48,010 nucleotides of DNA from the IMG/VR virus record IMGVR_UViG_3300021420_000009, positions 1 through 48,010 of that record; one strand, written 5' to 3'. The notes below the pieces were generated by a model. The model was given only the letters and a program-made list of their open reading frames with translations, made no database searches and was not told the origin of the DNA. The stretch comes from a virus. The translations under genes were made by a program, and so were the position numbers. This document shows positions 1 through 48,010 of the stretch, piece by piece (the stretch's first letter is position 1; every line of letters begins with the position of its first letter).

Positions 1-545
1 GAATGTTCCCGCACGAGTTTTTATATCAAATATTATTAAACGGAGACTTAAAAGATAATTATCAAATAGATCCCAAAGATTCCTGGGTATTAGCTGCTGC
101 TGAAAAAGATTTGCCTATTTATACCCCAGGTTGGGAGGACTCAACCCTTGGGAATGTTTTTGCTGCTTTATGTGTTAAAGGAGATTTTGAACCATACCTA
201 ATTAAGTCAGGTATCGAATACATGATGGACTTAGCTCTCTGGTACGATGAAACGAGTAAGCAGCATGACATGGGATTCTTTCAAATTGGCGGTGGTATTG
301 CTGGCGATTTTTCTATTTGTGTGGTACCTCTACTTCAGCAAGATATGAAAAAGAAAGATACTAAACTCTGGAGTTACTTCTGTCAGATAAGTGATGCTGT
401 TGAGTCATATGGTGGATATAGTGGAGCTTCTGCGCGGGAGAAGATTACTTGGGGTAAGTTGAGTGTTAATACTCCTTCTTTCATGATTCAATCAGATGCA
501 AGTATAGTGGCTCCGTTGATATTTGATTCGGTGCTTGGTCTATGA
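1..545 (+). CDS. Deoxyhypusine synthase family protein, C-terminal part (gene continues from 47409 across the contig ends)
   Basis: This is residues 160 to 339 of a protein that starts at 47409 and crosses the contig ends; the ATG at 3 is internal. The deoxyhypusine synthase family moves the aminobutyl group of spermidine, via NAD, onto a protein lysine or, in some members, onto a small amine such as putrescine. Visible family motifs in full-length numbering are PGWEDSTLG (201-209), FFQIGGGIAGDF (251-262), GYSGASAREKITWGK (297-311) and SDASIVAPLIF (323-333). The lysine of ITWGK (residue 311, bases 456-458) corresponds to the catalytic lysine of the eukaryotic enzyme. The length is near that of the family and nothing looks broken. 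The sequence resembles bacterial 'deoxyhypusine synthase-like' proteins more than eukaryotic ones. The substrate cannot be told from sequence. Confidence 0.9.
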   Translation, partial: MFPHEFLYQILLNGDLKDNYQIDPKDSWVLAAAEKDLPIYTPGWEDSTLGNVFAALCVKGDFEPYLIKSGIEYMMDLALWYDETSKQHDMGFFQIGGGIAGDFSICVVPLLQQDMKKKDTKLWSYFCQISDAVESYGGYSGASAREKITWGKLSVNTPSFMIQSDASIVAPLIFDSVLGL

Positions 546-629: not shown

Positions 630-923
630 ATGAGATTAACTGATCTTAATGTTCGTTGGATTTATTGGTCAGATGGTACTGGACCTATAGCTATAGAATT
701 TGATTGTCCTATTCATAAAGAAAAACATAAAATTAAAGTTGATTTCAAAAATCCTATGAACAATGCAAAAGCAGTAATAAGAAATAATTTATGGACTAGA
801 GAAGGTGAAATATTTGATAATTTATCTTTTACTCCTTCTATAGATTATACTAAATATGATAATGGGGTGGTTAGAGATTCTTCTTGTTGGCATGGATTTA
901 TTACTAAGGGTGAAGTAATATAA
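630..923 (+). CDS. Small phage protein resembling DUF6527
   Basis: A 97-residue protein. An N-terminal region has a cysteine-containing strand (FDCPIHKEKHKI), followed by WTREGEIFDNLSFTPSID and a C-terminal CWHGFITKGEV. The pattern 'TPSI ... WHGFI.xGEV' recalls the widespread phage family annotated DUF6527, whose function is not established. The stop overlaps the next start (TAATG at 921-925), so it is translationally coupled to the large virion gene downstream. It sits 84 bp after the deoxyhypusine synthase gene in the same rightward transcript. Family assignment is from memory of the motif and is tentative. Confidence 0.6.
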   Translation: MRLTDLNVRWIYWSDGTGPIAIEFDCPIHKEKHKIKVDFKNPMNNAKAVIRNNLWTREGEIFDNLSFTPSIDYTKYDNGVVRDSSCWHGFITKGEVI

Positions 924-3886
924 TGTATCCTCCAGCTCAACCTTTTAGACAACCTCAAGTACCTGATTTCTTTGAGCCTCCTCCAGAAGAACCAAAGAAA
1001 CAGGAAGTTCCTGACTTCTTTGAGTCTAGTGCTCCAGAGAAGAAGGCAGAGGTTCCTAAGGCTATAGACTATGGTTATGGTCCAAGATGGGATGAGAAAT
1101 CACAATCTTATTCTGGTAAACCTAAAGGATTAGGCCACTTAGGACCACTACTTAGATCAGATGGTAAAACAGTAGAAAGTGAATACTCTATTGATGGAGA
1201 AATAAACGGAAAACCTACTCAATATCCATCTATAGTTCCTACTCTTACTAAAGAAGAAGTTAATACTTTACTTAATGCTAAAGATAGTGATAAGTTGCCA
1301 GATAGTATTTATCAAAAAGCCGAAGCTTATGCTACTCAAAGAGTTAATGCTGGAAAAGATCCATTTGCTGGTCCGGGAGAGCAGCAAAATTTATATCCTG
1401 AAATACCAAGACAAAAGGTAACTCCTAATGGTACTAAATTTGAATTTCCTCAAGCTAAAGCAACAGGAGATAAATCCTTCTTAGACTCATTCTCAGAGGA
1501 AGCTAAAGGATTTCTTAGTAAACATCCTTTGATACAAAAGTTTTTCACTCCTACTACACAAGAAGAATATTATGGTAAGGATCAATCATTAATTGGGCCT
1601 AAAACTAGACAATCTTTAGATACTCCACTTTTACCAGAAATGACTAGTCAAGCTGCTGGAAGATTGACAAGAGGAGTATATAATAAAGCAGTTAGACCAT
1701 TAAGTAGTCCAGCTAACCTTATATCTAATACTCTATTAGGTGCTGCTACTCCTAAAAGTATTCCTAATGTGGGAGAAGTAGAAAGTGAAATACCTAAGAC
1801 TACCCCAGAAGTAGAAACTCCACCGCCCGCGGCTGAATCTACGGCTTCTCCGCAGCAACCAGAGAAACTCCATCCCGCCCTGGAAAATTTGATTAAGCAA
1901 GATGTAATGTCAAGGGATAGAGCTACCGAAATTCATAATGTGATGAAGGGTGGTAGTAAAGAGGGAGTTGATATACCTGAGATAGCTACTGATAATCCTG
2001 TTCCTGATTTCTTTATTAAAGCAGAGGAAGTAGAATCTCCTAAGCCCCCATCAGCTCCATTTGCCTCACGTTTAGCAGATTGGGTAAATGCTCGCTCTGC
2101 ATCAGATGTAGCAGGATATAGAAATAAGCAACTATTCCAGCATCTCGACCGCGAAGGAATTAAAGGTATTCTAGACTATCAAGAGAATCCATCTGACCCA
2201 CTATATAATCCACTTAAGGAGTACTTCTCAGGTAAGCGAGAGGAGTTACTTAAGTCTGGGTTAGAGATGGGAGATAAGGGAGATCATTATCTTCCTCAGT
2301 TATGGGATAATACACCTCAAGAAATCGAGGCGGCTACTGGTCAGAGGTTAGGACTTAAACCTTCCTTTTCCTTTGAGTCGGTAGTCAAAGACTACCATCA
2401 AGGTATCTCTATGGGTTTAGTCCCTAAGTTTGAGAAACTCTCAGATTTAGCTGGGTGGTATGAGAAAACAGCAGAGAAGAATCTAGTTGATAGAAATTTC
2501 TGGAACTCTATGAAAGAGAATGGGGAGATAAGTAGATTCCGTTCTACCCAAACTCCAGTAGCTCTAGATCCTAATACTACTCCTAACTTTGTATCTTCTA
2601 AGAATACTAGAGTATGGTATGCTTCTCCTAATGTAGCTCAGAAGATAAATAATGTATTAGGACAAGCAAGTGGGCCACTTCAGACTGCATCTAATATTAC
2701 TGGAACTATGAAGAATATGATGATGAGTGTAGGTGTACCTGGGACTGGTATTAGTCCACATGGATTCTCTACATTAGCTAGGGGAGCTTTATTTGATCCA
2801 TCTATGGTTCCTGATTTAGCTATGACTATGCTTAGCCCCCGCCGCGGATTAGCTACTATAGATGCCTCAGTCATGGATGGTAGACTAGAAAGATTTATGA
2901 AAGCTGGAATGACTTTCTCTAGTGAGGAACATTCCTTCTCTGCGCTAACTCGTCCTGAGGAAGTATCTCAGTCTAAGATTATAAATGCTCTAGAAGATGC
3001 TAAGAAAGTTAAAGATAATCTATTTGAGAAGCCTATCTTTGGGCGCCTTGTTCCTTCTGCTAAGATTAACCTGGCTACTAAACTAGAAGAAAGCATGATT
3101 AAGAAAGGAGTAGAGGAAGGACAGGCTACTAAGGAAGCTGCTCATGCAGTCAATAATATCTTTGGTGGTATTAATGTTAAGGAATTAGGTAGAGATCCTA
3201 ACTTCCAAGCCTCTCTTAGAACTTTCTTCTTTGCTCCTGACTTTGCTGAGTCTAATATTAATATAAGTAAGGAAGTAGTTAAGTCTCTAATGAATCCTAA
3301 TGATGCTGCTGGAGCACCTTATCGCAAGGCAGTAATGAATCTAGCTGCTCTCTATGTAGGAGGTAACTTACTTAATAAGAAGCTCTCTGGTCATTTTATG
3401 TTTGAGAATGATCCTACTCATACCTTCTCTATAGAAACAGGAGCGGTGGATTCGCAGGGTAAGAAGCAACATATTAATATATTAGGGTCCGCCGCGGCTG
3501 TTCCTCAGCTCTTATCAGAGGTAGCATCAGCAATAGCCCATAACCGAGCAGATATGATACCTAATATAGTTAGAGCTAGGCTATCACCTACTGCTAACTT
3601 AGCGGGAGATATAGTTACTAATAAGGACTTTGCTGGCAGGAATATACTAGGACCAAACAAGTTTGGGCAGCCACAAACTCCAGCAGCACAGTTAGGAAAC
3701 TTAGGTAGAGTAATATCTGATAGAACACTTCCATCATCACCTACTGCTGCCTATGATTATGCAACAGGTAATATAAGTGGTCAACAGGCACTTCCTAGGG
3801 TATTGGGGTTACCTGAAACATATTCTAAAGATCCTGATGAACAACAGCCTACTGGATTTAGATTGCAGCAGAGTATGAGGCCATAA
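923..3886 (+). CDS. Large virion/ejection-type protein (987 aa)
   Basis: The longest gene of the phage. Residues 1-60 are proline- and acid-rich with VPDFFE twice; a third VPDFF is near residue 355. Residues about 50-150 (YGYGPRWDEK ... GLGHLGPL ... YPSIVPTLT ... AEAYATQRVNAGKDPF) match a module common in phage internal or tail proteins. The remainder is long, mostly helical and lacks recognisable catalytic motifs. Its place at the end of the late operon, after two other internal-virion-like genes, fits a DNA-ejection or inner-core protein. Start is TAATG-coupled to the previous gene and the end is TAATG-coupled to the next. A lytic or polymerase activity is possible but I see no support. Confidence 0.65.
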   Translation: MYPPAQPFRQPQVPDFFEPPPEEPKKQEVPDFFESSAPEKKAEVPKAIDYGYGPRWDEKSQSYSGKPKGLGHLGPLLRSDGKTVESEYSIDGEINGKPTQYPSIVPTLTKEEVNTLLNAKDSDKLPDSIYQKAEAYATQRVNAGKDPFAGPGEQQNLYPEIPRQKVTPNGTKFEFPQAKATGDKSFLDSFSEEAKGFLSKHPLIQKFFTPTTQEEYYGKDQSLIGPKTRQSLDTPLLPEMTSQAAGRLTRGVYNKAVRPLSSPANLISNTLLGAATPKSIPNVGEVESEIPKTTPEVETPPPAAESTASPQQPEKLHPALENLIKQDVMSRDRATEIHNVMKGGSKEGVDIPEIATDNPVPDFFIKAEEVESPKPPSAPFASRLADWVNARSASDVAGYRNKQLFQHLDREGIKGILDYQENPSDPLYNPLKEYFSGKREELLKSGLEMGDKGDHYLPQLWDNTPQEIEAATGQRLGLKPSFSFESVVKDYHQGISMGLVPKFEKLSDLAGWYEKTAEKNLVDRNFWNSMKENGEISRFRSTQTPVALDPNTTPNFVSSKNTRVWYASPNVAQKINNVLGQASGPLQTASNITGTMKNMMMSVGVPGTGISPHGFSTLARGALFDPSMVPDLAMTMLSPRRGLATIDASVMDGRLERFMKAGMTFSSEEHSFSALTRPEEVSQSKIINALEDAKKVKDNLFEKPIFGRLVPSAKINLATKLEESMIKKGVEEGQATKEAAHAVNNIFGGINVKELGRDPNFQASLRTFFFAPDFAESNINISKEVVKSLMNPNDAAGAPYRKAVMNLAALYVGGNLLNKKLSGHFMFENDPTHTFSIETGAVDSQGKKQHINILGSAAAVPQLLSEVASAIAHNRADMIPNIVRARLSPTANLAGDIVTNKDFAGRNILGPNKFGQPQTPAAQLGNLGRVISDRTLPSSPTAAYDYATGNISGQQALPRVLGLPETYSKDPDEQQPTGFRLQQSMRP

Positions 3887-6246: not shown

Positions 6247-7451
6247 CTCTCCTTTACCTTTCCCTTAAGGAATATAGACTCATAAGCCTTCAATCCTACA
6301 GCATCCATGCTTAAATACAAATCATGCCCATTACGCTCTACTTGCATAAATCCCATCTCTACTAGAGTATTAGTGCAAGCATCTATCTCTACTGATAGAA
6401 CTCCATCAGGGTATAACTTTTGTAGTATAATCCTCCTTGATAATCTATGTTCTGGGTTAGAATGTAATATCTCCATTATCTTCTTTAGAACTGGAGATAG
6501 TTGAGAGGTTCCTTTGCTATTATCAGTAGTTACTCTAGTTGCATTAGATGAGAAGTCAGAGCATACTTTAATAGAAGATTCTACATAGGCTTCCTTAAGT
6601 TCCATAGCTCCATCTGCTAATGCTATTAGCATAGCTACTTTTAATACATGATCTCCCAGTCTCATTATAGTTCCAGTATTATCATCTATTTCTAATTTAT
6701 CTATTTCATGATACCATGCACGGTAGAGATTTTTACCGGGTGTACTCCAAGCTATAGGACCAGTAAGTTTACCTATCTCCCGCAGCTGAGTCTCATAGTA
6801 ATCTAAGTTTAGAGTACGGTTAGGTTTGTCTACGAGTGAATTACTCCTATGCTTCTTAGTCTCAAGTATAATAAAAGTCCTACCTATGAAGCCACCTTCA
6901 ATACTATTAGTCTGAATTGCTTCGCGGAAGTGAGGTGAGTTAATACCACCTATCATAGTTATATTTGGTCTCTTAAGGGACTCCCCTCCTGATTTAAGAG
7001 AGTTCTTCCACGGATTAGTCTCATAGTAGTGTCCATCATATAAATCTGTGAGGATTGTGAGAGCTTGTGGATCTTCTACTAGAGAGGAAGCAAACTCAGA
7101 AGCAGAAATAAAAGCAGTAGCTTCTACCAGGGGCGGCTGTCCTTCCCTACTATAAGCTTTGCCTAATTGTTCTACTAGGGACTGGATACTCATACGCCCT
7201 GATATGATACGTGTATTAGCTACTCTTGTTACTAACTCTTTAGCTTTGTTAATTGGAACGCCCTTACGTAATCCTGACTTACCGAAAAGGAACACATAGA
7301 TGTTGGGATACAGGTGGCCTACATCGAACCTATCCAAATATACTCTATTACTTACTGTTGCCGCGATAGCTGTAAGGAAGCTCCAATACCAATAACTAGA
7401 TGGTGATTCATATTCGTCAACATCGTTTAGCCACTCTTCGATTAAATTCAC
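6243..7451 (-). CDS. DUF3987-like replicative ATPase/helicase
   Basis: A 402-residue P-loop protein. FLFGKSGLRKGVPINKAKEL is a Walker-A-like loop, FISASEFASSLVED lies near the Walker B region, and EGGFIGRTFII carries a likely arginine finger. This set is typical of DUF3987-type proteins, which occupy the helicase position in many phage replication modules. A C-terminal winged-helix-like segment (RRIILQKLYPDGVLSVEID) follows. It overlaps the polymerase and DHH genes by 4 bp each. No primase domain is visible in it or elsewhere in the window. Confidence 0.75.
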   Translation of the reverse strand: MNLIEEWLNDVDEYESPSSYWYWSFLTAIAATVSNRVYLDRFDVGHLYPNIYVFLFGKSGLRKGVPINKAKELVTRVANTRIISGRMSIQSLVEQLGKAYSREGQPPLVEATAFISASEFASSLVEDPQALTILTDLYDGHYYETNPWKNSLKSGGESLKRPNITMIGGINSPHFREAIQTNSIEGGFIGRTFIILETKKHRSNSLVDKPNRTLNLDYYETQLREIGKLTGPIAWSTPGKNLYRAWYHEIDKLEIDDNTGTIMRLGDHVLKVAMLIALADGAMELKEAYVESSIKVCSDFSSNATRVTTDNSKGTSQLSPVLKKIMEILHSNPEHRLSRRIILQKLYPDGVLSVEIDACTNTLVEMGFMQVERNGHDLYLSMDAVGLKAYESIFLKGKVKES

Positions 7452-9913
7452 AGCTCAACTTCTTTACCTTCGTACCAATCATGTTCGTATAGGACAACTT
7501 CTACTGGGATGCTGAGTAAGCCACGGGAGAGTGAGCAAGAGGAAAAGTCAATCGGTTTTTCTAGTTCTGTTTTAAGTAATTTAGCTTGTTCTTCCCAAAT
7601 AGACTTTGGAGATTGAAAACAAATTGAATCGTGCCACTCCAAACAGAACATTAAATCCTTATCTTTTTCTTGTGCTCTGAGACAGGCCAATCGGAGAGCG
7701 TCCGGGACAGTCCCTTGAGGTATTGTTGCGTATCCTTCTCTATACAAAGCTTCATCATCCCTGCCAAGGAATCTTCTTCTTCTTCCGAAAGGATTATAGA
7801 GTGTTCTTGATTCGTCGATATGCGCTCTAACTTCCTCATGGTATATTGCCCTTACATTAGGTGAGTATTGATGGAATTTATCTAGTATCTGCCCACACTT
7901 CCACTCCGATAATCTTAAATCAATTCCATTCTTCCTACTCTCAGTCATAGTGCTGACCATTAGAGTATGCTTACCTTCTCCATAGTTACCACCATGACCA
8001 CCTTTCTTTCCTACATATCTCTCAAGTGAATCTACATCTTTCATGAGTACTAGAGGATCTTTCTTCTTTAGAAGTTCTACAGCTTCCTTAACTGTAGTCT
8101 TTCCTAGCTTCTTATCATAGAACCAACTCGCCCTAAGTCTGTGGGCATCACCCCCCAGAGTCATAAACTCTAAGAGATCCACATCTTTAGCAAGGTGAGC
8201 AGTTATCCATCCTTCTGCATTTTTATAATCAAGTTCAATGATGTAGCAACCCTTATGCGGTCGTATTGCTTTTCTGATATCCTTTCCCTGACCTCTCTTA
8301 GGAATCGTGTGAAAAGCAAGACCAGATAAGAATGGTCTGATTGGAGCATCAGGTTTACTGGTGGAAGAACGTCCAGTCTCAGTTCCGCAGCTATTATAAC
8401 TTGTTCTAAGTTTTCCGTCAAAGTCAAGTTTAATATCAATGGAGGTTGATTTGGCTTTTTTGAGTCGGCGGACATCTAATAACCTCTCGCAGAAGCTACG
8501 TTGGTTCTCATTTTTAATAGTGTTAGCAAGTAAGCCATAGATAGTATCTTCATCTGTTCCTGTGCGACCAGGTATCTTTAATTCCTCATACATTACTTTA
8601 GCTACTTGCTGCCAACTTCCTGTATTGAATTGGTGTCCAGCTATTTTATATAAATCTTTCTCTGCTTCCTGAATTAGCATCTTATATTTAGGAGCTAGTA
8701 CTTCATCTCTATAGGCTAAGTCAAAATCAAATCCTACCGCCTCGACTTCTTTGTAGAACTTATGGAGTCTTTGAGGAAGTAACTCGTAGAACTTCTTGAG
8801 GATGGGATCTTCTTCCAGCTCCTTCCACATTTCTTCAAATTCTTCAAATTCGGTGGAGGCGTCCTTAGCATTATAGAGCAGAACTTTCTTGATATCATCT
8901 TTTTTCGGATCAAAGTCTCTATAGTCATCCTTATAATAAGGTTCTCTTGTATAAACCGAGCAGAAGAAAGCTTGACCTTTACTTGGATATTCTGGCTCAA
9001 TCGTAGAACCAAGTAAGTATAAGTCTTGGATTTTCCCTCTGATTCTGAAGCCAAGGTCATTGAGCTTTTCTTCGTCATACTTTAGGTTAAGTCCAATCTT
9101 TTCTAAGTCAGGATTGCCTAGAATTTCTTGGACTGCTCTCCAGATTAAGGTGAGGTCAGTATCAGTGATGTTGGAGAACTTGAAGTTTTTTAGGGTATTA
9201 ACTAAAGGGATTGTAAAGCCTTCGCCGCGGTGGAATGAGAATCCTATCATAGATGGACAAGAACCACCTGCTATTGCTTCTATATCTATAGCACATCGTG
9301 GTTTTCCTCTACGTGCTTCAAAATAGGAAATTACTTGCTGAGCATTCTCAGCTATCTGTAAATTCCGGTGCGGCAGAGTTAAGTCTCTAGTTAGACTCTC
9401 CTCCAATGCCCTACCAACATCAAGCTTACATATGTGATAATAACTGTACTTAGCATGTACTTCGGTGTCAGAATCTCTGCTCCAAAGAAACGCAGCTGGA
9501 TGAAAAGTAGAGACAACTTTAGGAAGTCCATTAATAGAAGGGAGGATACTACCTCTCCAGCGAGTAATTTTCTTAAGCCCGGTAACAGCATTTAATGCCC
9601 TTTCTCCTAATGCTAGGATACAGTTAGGACGTATAGTTCGTATTTCATCCCATAGTTCAGAGTGAAGTTTATTGAGGTCAAATCCAGACTGCTTAAAATT
9701 AGCCCAAGAGGAGTTAGGAAGTTGGTACTTACAGACATTAGTTGTATATATTTCATCTCTTGATATATCATTTGCATATAACCAATCATTTAGTATTTGA
9801 CCTGCCGGACCTGTGAATGGCCTGCCTGATTCTACTTCTGAATAGGATGGAGCTTCTCCTATAGCCATTAGTTTGGCCGTAGAACTTCCATATCCTGGGA
9901 CGTATGTAGACAT
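7448..9913 (-). CDS. Family A DNA polymerase with N-terminal uracil-DNA-glycosylase-like domain and 3'-5' exonuclease
   Basis: An 821-residue three-domain protein. Residues 1-170 are a UDG-superfamily domain: GEAPSYSEVESGRPFTGPAG (19-38), YTTNVCKY and STFHPAAF (135-142). Residues about 200-360 are the exonuclease with D210/E212 (AIDIEA), D280 (GLNLKYD) and Y347-D351. The polymerase has TETGRSS (511-517), motif A D562 (LDYKNAEG), an O-helix with R632, K636, H640 and Y644, and motif C H761-D762 (EWHDSICF). The position normally Phe or Tyr in the O-helix is His640. I chose the ATG at 9913, which overlaps the upstream stop as TAATG, rather than 9961. A UDG-like domain on a phage polymerase is known from SPO1-type phages. 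The replicative role is secure; glycosylase activity is not. Confidence 0.9.
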   Translation of the reverse strand: MSTYVPGYGSSTAKLMAIGEAPSYSEVESGRPFTGPAGQILNDWLYANDISRDEIYTTNVCKYQLPNSSWANFKQSGFDLNKLHSELWDEIRTIRPNCILALGERALNAVTGLKKITRWRGSILPSINGLPKVVSTFHPAAFLWSRDSDTEVHAKYSYYHICKLDVGRALEESLTRDLTLPHRNLQIAENAQQVISYFEARRGKPRCAIDIEAIAGGSCPSMIGFSFHRGEGFTIPLVNTLKNFKFSNITDTDLTLIWRAVQEILGNPDLEKIGLNLKYDEEKLNDLGFRIRGKIQDLYLLGSTIEPEYPSKGQAFFCSVYTREPYYKDDYRDFDPKKDDIKKVLLYNAKDASTEFEEFEEMWKELEEDPILKKFYELLPQRLHKFYKEVEAVGFDFDLAYRDEVLAPKYKMLIQEAEKDLYKIAGHQFNTGSWQQVAKVMYEELKIPGRTGTDEDTIYGLLANTIKNENQRSFCERLLDVRRLKKAKSTSIDIKLDFDGKLRTSYNSCGTETGRSSTSKPDAPIRPFLSGLAFHTIPKRGQGKDIRKAIRPHKGCYIIELDYKNAEGWITAHLAKDVDLLEFMTLGGDAHRLRASWFYDKKLGKTTVKEAVELLKKKDPLVLMKDVDSLERYVGKKGGHGGNYGEGKHTLMVSTMTESRKNGIDLRLSEWKCGQILDKFHQYSPNVRAIYHEEVRAHIDESRTLYNPFGRRRRFLGRDDEALYREGYATIPQGTVPDALRLACLRAQEKDKDLMFCLEWHDSICFQSPKSIWEEQAKLLKTELEKPIDFSSCSLSRGLLSIPVEVVLYEHDWYEGKEVEL

Positions 9914-10152
9914 TAGAGAAATGACTTTGTTGAATCTGTATAAGTGCCACAAATAAGACAATTACCATCTAGATGCCATGTACCACCTGTAGGATTACAA
10001 TTTAAGCAGGACAGACACATAATATTAGCATCTGAAGGATAATCGCAAGATATACAAATTTTCTTATCTCTATCTAAAACTTGTCTAGTACATCCATGAT
10101 TACAAATATCTACATCACCAAAAGGACTATTAGGAAAATATTCCCAACTCAT
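9913..10152 (-). CDS. Cysteine-rich zinc-binding protein
   Basis: A 79-residue protein with nine cysteines in paired arrangement (CNHGC, CISC, CLSCLNC, CLIC), suggesting two zinc ribbons. It lies immediately upstream of the DNA polymerase gene and is coupled to it by TAATG. No enzymatic motif. A replication or transcription accessory is a guess from position only. Confidence 0.6.
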   Translation of the reverse strand: MSWEYFPNSPFGDVDICNHGCTRQVLDRDKKICISCDYPSDANIMCLSCLNCNPTGGTWHLDGNCLICGTYTDSTKSFL

Positions 10153-44277: not shown

Positions 44278-45789
44278 ATGTATACTCCGTTTAATCATAA
44301 ACTTTTAAGTTTAGTTTTACTGCCTCTCCAAGCAAAAGGGGACCATGATGCTGTAATGAATAATATTAACACACAACAATCTGCAGCTAATACACAAAAT
44401 CAGCAGATTGCAAATACAGCTAATCAGCAAGTAGCTAATGCAGGAACGCAAGATACTAGCCTGATGAATCAAGTTACTTCTAATGCCACTAATATGGGTT
44501 CTCAGGGCTATATTGATAGCCTATTTAATTCCGTCGGCGGAGTAGGTGGAGTTAGTGGTGGTATTGATCAAAGCACGATAGACCAGATGGGAGCAGTTCC
44601 TTATGCTGGTTATCAAACTATGAGTCAAGGTTTAACTCCACAATTTACTAATGCAATAAATCCTACTATTCAAACATTAGCTACGGGTGGTGTTGACTCT
44701 GCCGCGCAGCAGAATTATTTAGGAGATGGAACCTATCAGAATTTTGCTACTACTGGTGGAATGACTGATCAACAGCAGCAACAGTATCTTGCTCAGTCTC
44801 TATCTCCTTTATATGCTACTTATGCTAATGCTCAGAATAGTCTAGACCAATCTAGAGCATTAGCTGGTGGTAATATGGCTAATTATGGCGCGGTACAGTC
44901 TCAAATGGCTAGACAGCTAGGGACTACCGCGGCGCAACAATCTACTAATGCACAGTCTGGATTAAACCAACAATTAGCTGCTAATAAGTTAGCAGGTGCT
45001 CAAGGGTTAACTCAAGGTCAGGCTGCTTTATCATCTCAACAGAGTCAGAATGAACAAGCATCAGTTAGTGCTCAGATACAAGTACAGCAACTAAATGCTC
45101 AAATGCAAGCTGCTGGACTTGCTGGAATGACTCAAATTGAACAAGATAAACTACAAGCTGAATTACAGAATGCTCAAATTAATGAGCAAGCTAGTTATAT
45201 GAATGATCAGGTTAAATTGCAGAGTATTGGACTGCAAGCAGGTATTCAGTCTAATGCTAATCAGCAGTTACTTGGTGCCTATAGTGCAACTCCGGGTGCT
45301 CTAGCACAATCTGAGAATTATCAGTTGCAGAATCAAGGACAGAATAATCAAGCTAATCTAGGGTATATAAATGCACAGATTGGGGCTTCTCAGATTCCTG
45401 GTAATTTCCAGTCTGCTTTAGGTAATATTGGAAGCTTAATTGGATTGGGGAGTAACGCAGTAGGCGCTACACAAGGAGCTTTAGGTAATAATCAAGCTAA
45501 TGCTAGTGGTGGAGGTGGAGGAATACCTCCAGGTGAAGTAGGTTATCCAGGTACTACTCCTACTAGTCCTGGAGTTGATCCTAGTAATCCCACCCCAGTT
45601 ACAGGAGCACAGGTTATAGATCCTAATACTGGATTACCTTATGGTGACTCAGGTACGGGTAGTGGTGGTAATAATGCTGTAGGTGGTGGTGGAGGTAGTA
45701 CCGATTACTCTAATCAATCTGGTAATACATTACCATATCAATATAATCCCTACGCTAATACCAATAATATTTATCCTCAAATGGGATAA
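44278..45789 (+). CDS. Gln/Ala/Asn-rich internal virion protein
   Basis: A 503-residue protein with long Gln/Ala/Asn-rich helical stretches (NTANQQVANAGTQ; QQSQNEQASVSAQIQVQQLN), probably coiled coils. A short hydrophobic N-terminus (KLLSLVLLPL) precedes them, and the end is Gly/Pro-rich. Proteins of this composition in podoviruses form the inner core and are ejected with DNA. It is followed by two other candidates for ejection proteins. Confidence 0.6.
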   Translation: MYTPFNHKLLSLVLLPLQAKGDHDAVMNNINTQQSAANTQNQQIANTANQQVANAGTQDTSLMNQVTSNATNMGSQGYIDSLFNSVGGVGGVSGGIDQSTIDQMGAVPYAGYQTMSQGLTPQFTNAINPTIQTLATGGVDSAAQQNYLGDGTYQNFATTGGMTDQQQQQYLAQSLSPLYATYANAQNSLDQSRALAGGNMANYGAVQSQMARQLGTTAAQQSTNAQSGLNQQLAANKLAGAQGLTQGQAALSSQQSQNEQASVSAQIQVQQLNAQMQAAGLAGMTQIEQDKLQAELQNAQINEQASYMNDQVKLQSIGLQAGIQSNANQQLLGAYSATPGALAQSENYQLQNQGQNNQANLGYINAQIGASQIPGNFQSALGNIGSLIGLGSNAVGATQGALGNNQANASGGGGGIPPGEVGYPGTTPTSPGVDPSNPTPVTGAQVIDPNTGLPYGDSGTGSGGNNAVGGGGGSTDYSNQSGNTLPYQYNPYANTNNIYPQMG

Positions 45790-45797
45790 GGTGATAT

Positions 45798-46982
45798 ATG
45801 TATCCTCCAATGGATAATCTAGCATCTCTAAGATTACATAATCTTTTTATGCCGCAGGGAGTAGGTGATCCTCCGCCGGAGTCTAATCCTAATGGTAATC
45901 CATTACCTCCGCCGCAACCTGCTCCTAATCCTACTCCACAAGATAGTGGAACTTTAACTGATCAACCTTATGATGTTCAGCAAAGGATGAAACAGTTATA
46001 TACTCCTTCTACTTCTGCTCAGACTGCTTACTCTGATGCAGCTAAGAATATTCCAAGTGTTAATACCCCAAGTAGAATGAGAAGAATAGGAGCTATGATA
46101 GCTGGATTGAATGCTCCTAATGGTGGAGCTGCTTATGATACTGCTTCTAGAATAGTAAATGATCCTAATACTCAGGCTATGAATAGATATAGGCAGCAAG
46201 TATCTGCTTTGCAGCCTGCTGCGGCTCAAGAGCAATCTCAGAATAAGATAGATCAACAAGAAGCATTTAAGGTTATAGCTGATGAACAGGTTGCTAAGAA
46301 GGAAGCTGATCTAAAAGCTAATAATATACTAAAAGATAAGCAAGCAGAAGAAAAAATACAGATAGCAGCTAATAGAGCAGCAGCTTATACATTTCATCAA
46401 AATAATCCTATATGGAAAGCATCTATTACTCCAGACGGAGAATTAGTATATACTAATCCTCAAGATCCAACAGCTAAACCAGTTTATACTAGTGTTAATA
46501 CTTATCATGATGTAGGTGACTTAGAAAAACTTAATCTTGGATTACAAGCTGCACAGGCTAGAGTTAATACTCAACAAGCAGGAGCTAATCAAAGGAATCA
46601 AGTTACTATAGCTGGTGCTGCTGCTAGAACTGATGCTCAACAAATAGGAGCTAATACTAGAGCTGCTGGTGCTCAATCTGGTGCTACTGATAGAACTAAT
46701 ATAAGGGAACAAGGAGCCACCGATAGAAGGAATACTCCACCGCCGACGAAAACTGTTACAACTACTATTTCTCCTGATAAGCAGAGTAAGACAGTTACTA
46801 CTGGGACTGCAAGGACTACTGATGTTGATTTGAGTAAAGGTAAGAATACTACTCCTGCTCCTGTAGATACTGGAACGGTCCAAATGAAGCATCCCGTAAC
46901 AGGTAAAGTAGGACCTGTTAAGAAAGAAAATGTAGAAGCTGCTAAGAAAGCTGGTTATACAATTGTATCGGATGGTCAATAA
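45798..46982 (+). CDS. Second internal/ejection-type virion protein
   Basis: A 394-residue protein: proline-rich N-terminus (PPPESNPNGNPLPPPQPAPN), helical centre with repeating Ala/Gln heptads (AQARVNTQQAGANQRNQV; AAARTDAQQIGANTRAAG) and a C-terminal motif KHPVTGKVGPVKKENVEAA ... AGYTIV seen at the ends of other phage virion proteins. The stop overlaps the next ATG (TAATG). Confidence 0.6.
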   Translation: MYPPMDNLASLRLHNLFMPQGVGDPPPESNPNGNPLPPPQPAPNPTPQDSGTLTDQPYDVQQRMKQLYTPSTSAQTAYSDAAKNIPSVNTPSRMRRIGAMIAGLNAPNGGAAYDTASRIVNDPNTQAMNRYRQQVSALQPAAAQEQSQNKIDQQEAFKVIADEQVAKKEADLKANNILKDKQAEEKIQIAANRAAAYTFHQNNPIWKASITPDGELVYTNPQDPTAKPVYTSVNTYHDVGDLEKLNLGLQAAQARVNTQQAGANQRNQVTIAGAAARTDAQQIGANTRAAGAQSGATDRTNIREQGATDRRNTPPPTKTVTTTISPDKQSKTVTTGTARTTDVDLSKGKNTTPAPVDTGTVQMKHPVTGKVGPVKKENVEAAKKAGYTIVSDGQ

Positions 46983-47419
46983 TGGAAATAACTAAAGAAG
47001 AGTATTTAGCTTGGGCTGCTGGTATATTTGAAGGTGAAGGTTCAACTAATAGATATAATCCAATAACAGTAGCTCAGAAAGATCCTTGGATATTATATAA
47101 ACTAAAAGAATTATATGGTGGTTCTATAACTTATTATAATGATAAAAATATATTTGTATGGTATTTAGGTAGTGAAGAAGGTAGAAATCTTCTAAGATCT
47201 ATGATACCTTATTTATCTCCTAGAAGATTACAACAAATAGAAAATAATAATGTCCTTAAAACTTTATATGAAATGAAAACACATTGTAAGAATGGACATG
47301 AGTTTATAGAGTCTAATACTGTATTTGCTTCTAATGGAGCTAGACAATGTAGAATTTGTATTAATTCATGGCATCGCGAACATCGTAAAAAACTAAAGTT
47401 GGTGAGAGATGCTTCCTAG
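46982..47419 (+). CDS. LAGIDADG-type homing endonuclease with C-terminal zinc finger
   Basis: A 145-residue protein. AWAAGIFEGEGS (11-22) is a LAGIDADG-family helix with the catalytic acidic residue; one copy implies action as a homodimer. After the beta-saddle (VWYLGSEEGRNLLRSMIPYL) comes a zinc module CKNGHEF ... CRIC followed by NSWHREHRKK. Free-standing homing genes cut the corresponding site of competing phages and spread with nearby DNA. It sits between an ejection-protein gene and the deoxyhypusine synthase gene, overlapping the latter by 11 bp. Confidence 0.8.
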   Translation: MEITKEEYLAWAAGIFEGEGSTNRYNPITVAQKDPWILYKLKELYGGSITYYNDKNIFVWYLGSEEGRNLLRSMIPYLSPRRLQQIENNNVLKTLYEMKTHCKNGHEFIESNTVFASNGARQCRICINSWHREHRKKLKLVRDAS

Positions 47420-48010
47420 AGAAATGAAAGCTGGAAGATATAAAGATAAACCTTTAGCTACTGGAAAAGTAGCTAGTTTTATCCAGCGAAATTATCATCA
47501 CTTTAATTCTGCAGTAGTTAAAGATTCTATAGAAGCCTATATTAAATTATTAAACTCTGGTGGTAAGATGTTCCTCTCCTTAGCAGGTGCAATGAGTACT
47601 GCTCAGTTGGGGATTTCTTTAGCTGAAATGATTAGACAAGATAAGATTCATGGAATATCGACAACGGGCGCCAATCTTGAAGAGGATGTATTTAATTTAG
47701 TTGCTCATGATTCATATATAACTATAAGCAATTATCGTAATATTACTCCAGAAGATGAAAAAGAATTAGCAAAGAAGAAGATTAATCGAGTTACTGATGT
47801 TGGAATACCAGAATCAGTAGCAATGTCTCCTATAGAAGATGCCATTATATCTAGTTGGGAACAAGCTAGAGATAATGATGATAGAATGTTCCCGCACGAG
47901 TTTTTATATCAAATATTATTAAACGGAGACTTAAAAGATAATTATCAAATAGATCCCAAAGATTCCTGGGTATTAGCTGCTGCTGAAAAAGATTTGCCTA
48001 TTTATACCCC
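47409..48010 (+). CDS. Deoxyhypusine synthase family protein, N-terminal part (continues at base 1)
   Basis: The ATG at 47409 (MLPREMKAGRYKDKPLATGK) starts within the end of the homing endonuclease gene. Residues 1-159 lead in frame to the part at 3-545, giving 339 residues. Visible here are FLSLAGAMSTAQLGISLAEM (55-74) and the NAD-contact motif TTGANLEEDVFNLVAH (85-100), with the HD of AHDSY following. The last 127 bp repeat bases 1-127. The whole enzyme appears intact. Similar bacterial proteins lack an eIF5A partner and some act on polyamines; I see no candidate substrate protein or other polyamine gene in this genome. Confidence 0.9.
   Translation, partial: MLPREMKAGRYKDKPLATGKVASFIQRNYHHFNSAVVKDSIEAYIKLLNSGGKMFLSLAGAMSTAQLGISLAEMIRQDKIHGISTTGANLEEDVFNLVAHDSYITISNYRNITPEDEKELAKKKINRVTDVGIPESVAMSPIEDAIISSWEQARDNDDRMFPHEFLYQILLNGDLKDNYQIDPKDSWVLAAAEKDLPIYT
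47884..48010. repeat. 127-bp exact copy of bases 1-127 (circular assembly overlap)
   Basis: The last 127 bases are identical to the first 127, within the deoxyhypusine synthase gene. The length equals a k-mer size often used by short-read assemblers, so this is most simply an assembly overlap showing a circular or circularly permuted genome, not a real terminal repeat. The gene reads through in frame, supporting a single copy. Confidence 0.9.

Follow-up and report, generated by a model that had tools for sequence, protein, structure and literature searches.

The window (the whole stretch of DNA that was analysed, a viral contig of 48,010 nt) carries a gene of the deoxyhypusine synthase (DHS) family that is divided between the two contig ends. 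By direct comparison the first 127 bases are identical to the last 127, and this exact repeat indicates that the contig is a circle of 47,883 bp. The features at and around the gene are listed here in circular order.

44278 to 45789, plus strand: 503-aa late protein of family c1, conserved upstream of the DHS-family gene in 12 contigs
45798 to 46982, plus strand: 394-aa late protein, equivalent of a gene of about 310 aa (c3) by position only
46982 to 47419, plus strand: free-standing HNH endonuclease (phrog_5046, E 3.9e-11)
47409 to 47883, plus strand: DHS-family gene, 5' part, codons 1-158 plus base 1 of codon 159
47884 to 48010, no strand: terminal repeat, an exact 127-bp copy of 1-127 (sequence identity)
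1 to 545, plus strand: DHS-family gene, 3' part, with the GGG loop and the catalytic lysine K311
630 to 923, plus strand: 97-aa protein, weakly DUF6527-like (PF20137, E 0.0013, below the cut-off), between the DHS-family gene and the large downstream gene
923 to 3886, plus strand: 987-aa protein whose C-terminal part distantly matches the large c10 protein

The frame of the 5' part stays open up to the contig end, and each part matches PF01916 alone (E 5.6e-20 for the 5' part and E 5.6e-25 for the 3' part). At the 3' end of the contig only 47409-47883 is unique sequence, and joining it to 1-545 gives a single frame of 339 codons and a stop. The earlier note had proposed this 339-residue frame across the ends, and it holds. 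In L001, L002, L090 and others the full-length gene lies inside the contig, at the equal place and with the same kinds of neighbours, so the join is credible even without reads. A gene that straddles contig ends might be an assembly artefact in which a host gene was fused to a phage contig. We consider this extremely unlikely, as the ends overlap exactly over 127 bp and the GC and GC3 of the gene resemble those of the neighbour genes; synteny with 12 other contigs that hold the gene at the equal place rules it out.

The genome is that of a phage. Its plus strand encodes a terminase large subunit, major head protein, tail collar, cell wall hydrolase and tail proteins, and its minus strand a PolA, an SNF2-like helicase, a DUF3987 protein and a PD-(D/E)XK nuclease. 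PolA (7448-9961, minus strand) is one protein with a fused N-terminal uracil-DNA-glycosylase domain (PF03167 at 22-165, PF00476 at 426-623). No isolated close relative of the phage was found, the terminase matches being about 27-35% identical and those of PolA about 22-28%. A host search with the DUF3987 gene in Acidobacteriota and Verrucomicrobiota, to which L035 and L007 respectively belong, gave no match, a result that is uninformative on the host.

In the 13 contigs of the lineage whose gene order was compared (window included, some of them cut), the DHS-family gene is found close to where the late operon ends. It usually comes after c1 and c3 and before the c10 protein (about 1000-1390 aa), beyond which the strand switches to DUF3987 and PolA. 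The window departs from this order in part. Similarity of the 394-aa protein was found to L001 only (24%), with no match to the c3 profile, and the 987-aa protein aligns to c10 with an hhalign probability of 75% (E 2.5e-5). The HNH gene directly upstream, which overlaps the start of the DHS-family gene by 11 bp and has a low GC3 (0.13), had no counterpart at this position when gene order was compared with the relatives; together with the DUF6527-like gene it is an extra insertion in the window. The late-operon position described in the earlier note stands, and its label of ejection-protein genes is plausible by order, size and composition, with no library match that names them as such. As a separate observation, RIIA-like/GHKL ATPase profiles match the c10 protein of L122 (10996-15165) at 309-409, in contrast to that of L120, and in another phage lineage (L100, 1816-11844) a DHS-like gene lies directly before a giant frame of more than 3300 aa.

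None of 80 DUF3987-related phage loci carried a DHS-family gene (0/80). In 52 of these 80 DHS-free loci the gene of about 400 aa and the giant gene were readable as neighbours, and in 51 of the 52 they were within 70 bp of each other, mostly with a 1-base overlap. Since the flanking genes abut in these relatives, the loci represent a natural empty site, and the DHS-family gene was inserted between the two genes and kept. Because both are late genes, expression of the inserted gene is expected to accompany that of the virion genes.

The 339-aa protein matched Pfam PF01916 with 143.7 bits (gathering score 27) and E 9e-42 over profile positions 11-286 of 288, and matched no other Pfam family. The phage thus encodes a full-length enzyme of the DHS family, as had been claimed from the letters alone, and the motifs then pointed out (TTGANLEED, the GGG core FFQIGGGIAGDF and the lysine of ITWGK) are all present. 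The best NCBIfam match was NF001980 (PRK00770, homospermidine biosynthesis) with 126.5 bits, under its cut-off of 450, and the CdmS model NF002699 gave 78.3 bits, under its cut-off of 500. The bacterial relatives score in a similar range against the same models, which places the whole subfamily outside NCBI's named families.

In an alignment with human DHS, the residues K329, W327, E323, S317, D238 and D342 correspond to the identical K311, W309, E305, S299, D205 and D324 of the window protein, and these six residues are kept wherever a sampled bacterial or phage homologue extends over the site. Both the NAD site and the catalytic lysine are thus intact. The polyamine site is not: D243, H288 and D316 of the human enzyme are replaced by N210, D261 and Y298, and N106 by A61 when the gap-free alignment is extended. 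N210, D261 and Y298 are near-invariant within the subfamily. The residues N106, D243, H288 and D316 of a true eIF5A-modifying DHS are therefore missing here. As for the active-site substitutions that the earlier note had considered as evidence against it, the catalytic positions are free of them and four polyamine-site positions carry them. Catalytic residues that are kept and pocket residues that are replaced indicate that the chemistry is retained and the polyamine pocket altered; judging from the alignments, the altered pocket appears to match that of no characterised enzyme checked.

Since the window protein spans the contig ends, the protein of L002, 66% identical to it, was chosen for AF2 modelling (pLDDT 94, pTM 0.92). 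The best PDB matches of this model were DHS structures, with Z of about 30 and rmsd of 2.2-2.7 Å over about 295 residues (human DHS, Z 30, 295 residues). The predicted structure of this relative thus has the DHS fold, in agreement with the family assignment. The first ten residues were of low confidence (mean pLDDT 55).

A short peptide, M[LIM]PR[ED], begins 15 phage homologues and none of 79 bacterial homologues. In the window it reads MLPRE (47409-47423, plus strand). In L002 its start codon is GTG, and in L089 and L133, where the gene surroundings also differ, it begins some codons downstream of the start of the longest frame, and it is retained across proteins about 50-66% identical to that of the window. 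The idea that overlapping genes force this conservation was rejected, because in most relatives the upstream gene overlaps by few bases or none. A single change, that is, a single origin of the 15 peptide-bearing sequences, was obtained in 30% of bootstrap trees.

Pairwise dN/dS within the lineage of the window was 0.05-0.11 for pairs with estimable dS, several pairs being saturated, and the gene is under strong purifying selection. This result bears on whether the protein is an enzyme at all. A structural or binding virion protein that has retained the DHS fold would agree with the fixed place among putative internal virion genes, with the phage-specific N-terminal peptide and with drift, in one subclade, of the loop that precedes the active site (D290 to N, S294 to E). 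We nevertheless judge it very improbable, given that the catalytic residues are all kept in each phage member covering them and that selection is strong throughout.

Relatives are encoded in at least 570 stretches of species-representative genomes, the best 80 of which are about 55-64% identical and belong to Acidobacteriota, Bdellovibrionota, Verrucomicrobiota, Planctomycetota, Bacteroidota and others. Scans of viral contigs found the gene at 6 loci at first and in 53 contigs with an alignment-based method, in several uncultivated lineages. A tblastn search of INPHARED phages with the 339-aa protein gave no match, PHROGs contained no family for it, nothing significant was found among the viral structures of BFVD, and plasmids gave archaeal DHS only (21-23% identity). 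The genuine phage genome, the bacterial relatives of about 60% identity and the selection mark the gene as an auxiliary metabolic gene.

Trees were built with the 80 nearest bacterial matches as the bacterial sampling. In a quick tree of 132 sequences, in which long branches are present, 6 changes of the virus label are required, 3 or more of them on well-supported branches, which indicates several transfers and argues against a single ancestor as the source of the gene in all phages. A careful tree of 66 sequences groups 12 sequences of the window's lineage with support 98/96. It leaves a largely viral group, and the Bacteroidota-like phage sequences stand apart, as separate insertions near Bacteroidota.

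The surroundings of the gene in bacteria point to polyamines. The arginine decarboxylase gene speA and/or the agmatinase gene speB lie within 3 kb in 17 of the 80 best bacterial loci, many of which have cut flanks, and a tight speA-speB-DHS order is found in three bacterial loci (L032, L074, L085). No eIF5A domain was detected in the bacterial genomes carrying the subfamily (0/8), nor in the phage records (PF01287, 0/20). The loss of the polyamine-site residues, the speA/speB neighbours and the absence of eIF5A from these bacterial genomes suggest that the enzyme is most likely SpeY-like and not eIF5A-modifying. DHS homologues named SpeY act as homospermidine synthases (PMC9992855, PMC10407285), and speY clusters with anomalous speD in bacteria and archaea (PMC10407285).

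A SpeD homologue and a DHS-like enzyme were found together in 10 phage contigs of other lineages (L006, L093, L094, L095, L110, L112, L113, L114, L119 and L121), and none of the 10 carried SpeE. The two genes are 0.06-3 kb apart in six of them: in L094, L110, L112, L113 and L114 SpeD precedes the DHS-like gene on its strand by about 1-3 kb, and in L006 it adjoins that gene on the opposite strand. SpeD without SpeE in ten phages suggests a phage-encoded route from putrescine or agmatine to homospermidine. The SpeD of L112 reads ESHISVHSFEDKGY. A proline retained by true AdoMetDC is, according to PMC10407285, not conserved among the homologues that decarboxylate arginine, and we infer that the proline meant is that of the usual HTWPE motif. 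Phage SpeD homologues with the L112 type of sequence may therefore decarboxylate ornithine or arginine. Neither the arginase family (PF00491) nor a PLP ornithine/arginine decarboxylase (PF02784) was present in the phage records; the window phage, with no SpeD, arginase-family or PLP decarboxylase gene of its own, would rely on host putrescine. The possibility of homospermidine-like polyamines raised in the earlier note thus gains support from the link of the subfamily to speA/speB and from the SpeD homologue in other phages.

The reading that we favour, and hold to be somewhat probable, is that of an acquired auxiliary metabolic gene for an active, NAD-dependent, SpeY-like homospermidine synthase used late in infection. 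The intact gene, its family, its catalytic residues, the fold of the L002 relative, the purifying selection, the fixed location and the empty site support it directly; that the protein is catalytic, uses putrescine, is expressed late and benefits the phage is predicted. A diamine, most likely putrescine, would bind and have its amine oxidised by NAD, the 4-aminobutylidene group would then be held on K311 as an imine, and its passage to a second putrescine, followed by reduction, would give homospermidine. Expression together with the virion genes would fall at the time when packaging and late translation need polycations most. Phage replication requires polyamines, and homospermidine, a DNA- and RNA-binding polyamine, is most likely the product, predicted to be made late in infection. 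Against the assignment to SpeY, both the window protein and its bacterial relatives miss the NCBI homospermidine-family cut-off by far.

The substrate could instead be agmatine, two molecules of which would yield caldomycin (1,9-bis(guanidino)-5-azanonane), converted to homospermidine by a host ureohydrolase. Agmatinase often adjoins the gene of the bacterial relatives, and CdmS likewise lacks the human D243 and D316 (PMC10981699), where the window protein has N210 and Y298; the replacements in CdmS are different (F204 and L286), and we regard this substrate as unlikely. Another donor/acceptor pair, e.g., spermidine and putrescine as in plant homospermidine synthase, or another triamine, would fit a polyamine site without a characterised counterpart among the enzymes checked and the description of DHS as highly promiscuous (PMC7780104). 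The speA/speB neighbours and the phage SpeD without SpeE favour putrescine or agmatine over spermidine, which leaves such a pair a low probability.

Aminobutylation of a protein lysine, in host EF-P or a virion protein, as true DHS acts on eIF5A, is permitted by the family chemistry, and the gene does lie among virion genes, while its phage-specific N-terminal peptide might serve to bind another phage protein. The missing eIF5A domains (0/20 phage records, 0/8 bacterial genomes), the change of N106, D243, H288 and D316 to A61, N210, D261 and Y298, and the polyamine genes that accompany the bacterial subfamily all argue against it, and a crude motif scan of the window ORFs for hypusination-like loops gave none. 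We therefore consider it quite unlikely, and the modification of a host or virion lysine or altered host translation, which the earlier note had also entertained, found no support in the eIF5A counts or the pocket residues. It is more doubtful still that the peptide steers the enzyme to the virion or to a phage protein, either for aminobutylation of a virion lysine or so that homospermidine is made at the packaging site; if true, a peptide-directed, virion-linked polyamine or lysine-modification system would be one not known in any virus.

Returning to the SpeY-like homospermidine synthase, the window protein shares with SpeY of Anabaena and Ca. Pelagibacter (PMC9992855, PMC10407285) the DHS family, the catalytic lysine, an organism without eIF5A and a polyamine gene context, here in the bacterial relatives. 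Unlike SpeY, it is encoded by a phage in a late operon, carries the phage-specific N-terminal peptide and falls below the NCBI homospermidine cut-off, and its activity is predicted. With eukaryotic and archaeal DHS (human 1dhs/6xxj; P. horikoshii 7cmc) it has in common the fold (Z about 30), the NAD motif and the equivalents of D238, E323, W327 and K329, but identity is only about 17-24%, N106, D243, H288 and D316 are replaced and an eIF5A partner is missing. CdmS of Thermus thermophilus (PMC10981699) is also a bacterial DHS homologue with D243 and D316 replaced, by F and L there and by N and Y here, where the score against the NCBI model is low.

The statement that no phage pathway with this enzyme is established needs to be divided. 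A survey of the virosphere by BLASTP found no SpeY or DHS homologue in viruses or phages (Li et al. 2023, PMC9992855), and a text search for DHS and auxiliary metabolic genes gave nothing beyond that paper; the viral use of the DHS family is therefore new. Homospermidine synthesis by a phage is not, since phages with a non-homologous homospermidine synthase (HSS), e.g., phi-RSL1, are known (PMC9992855). HSS of phi-RSL1, Achromobacter phage Motura and chloroviruses (PMC9992855) is, like the window gene, virus-encoded and serves homospermidine, as is predicted here, but it belongs to a non-homologous family related to carboxyspermidine dehydrogenase; no homology to it was found, PF01916 being the sole match. 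The SpeD, SpeDA and SpeDC decarboxylases of phages (PMC9992855) are likewise polyamine auxiliary genes, for a different enzyme and step, and SpeD homologues occur in the 10 other contigs with a DHS-like enzyme and not in the phage of the window. If active, the window enzyme would provide a second virus-encoded route to homospermidine, non-homologous to HSS, and which polyamine these phages make in infection is now directly testable. In a pooled scan of L112, L095, L119 and L006, genes for PRPP synthetase, nicotinamide phosphoribosyltransferase, a sigma factor and a DprA-like protein were observed near the DHS gene.
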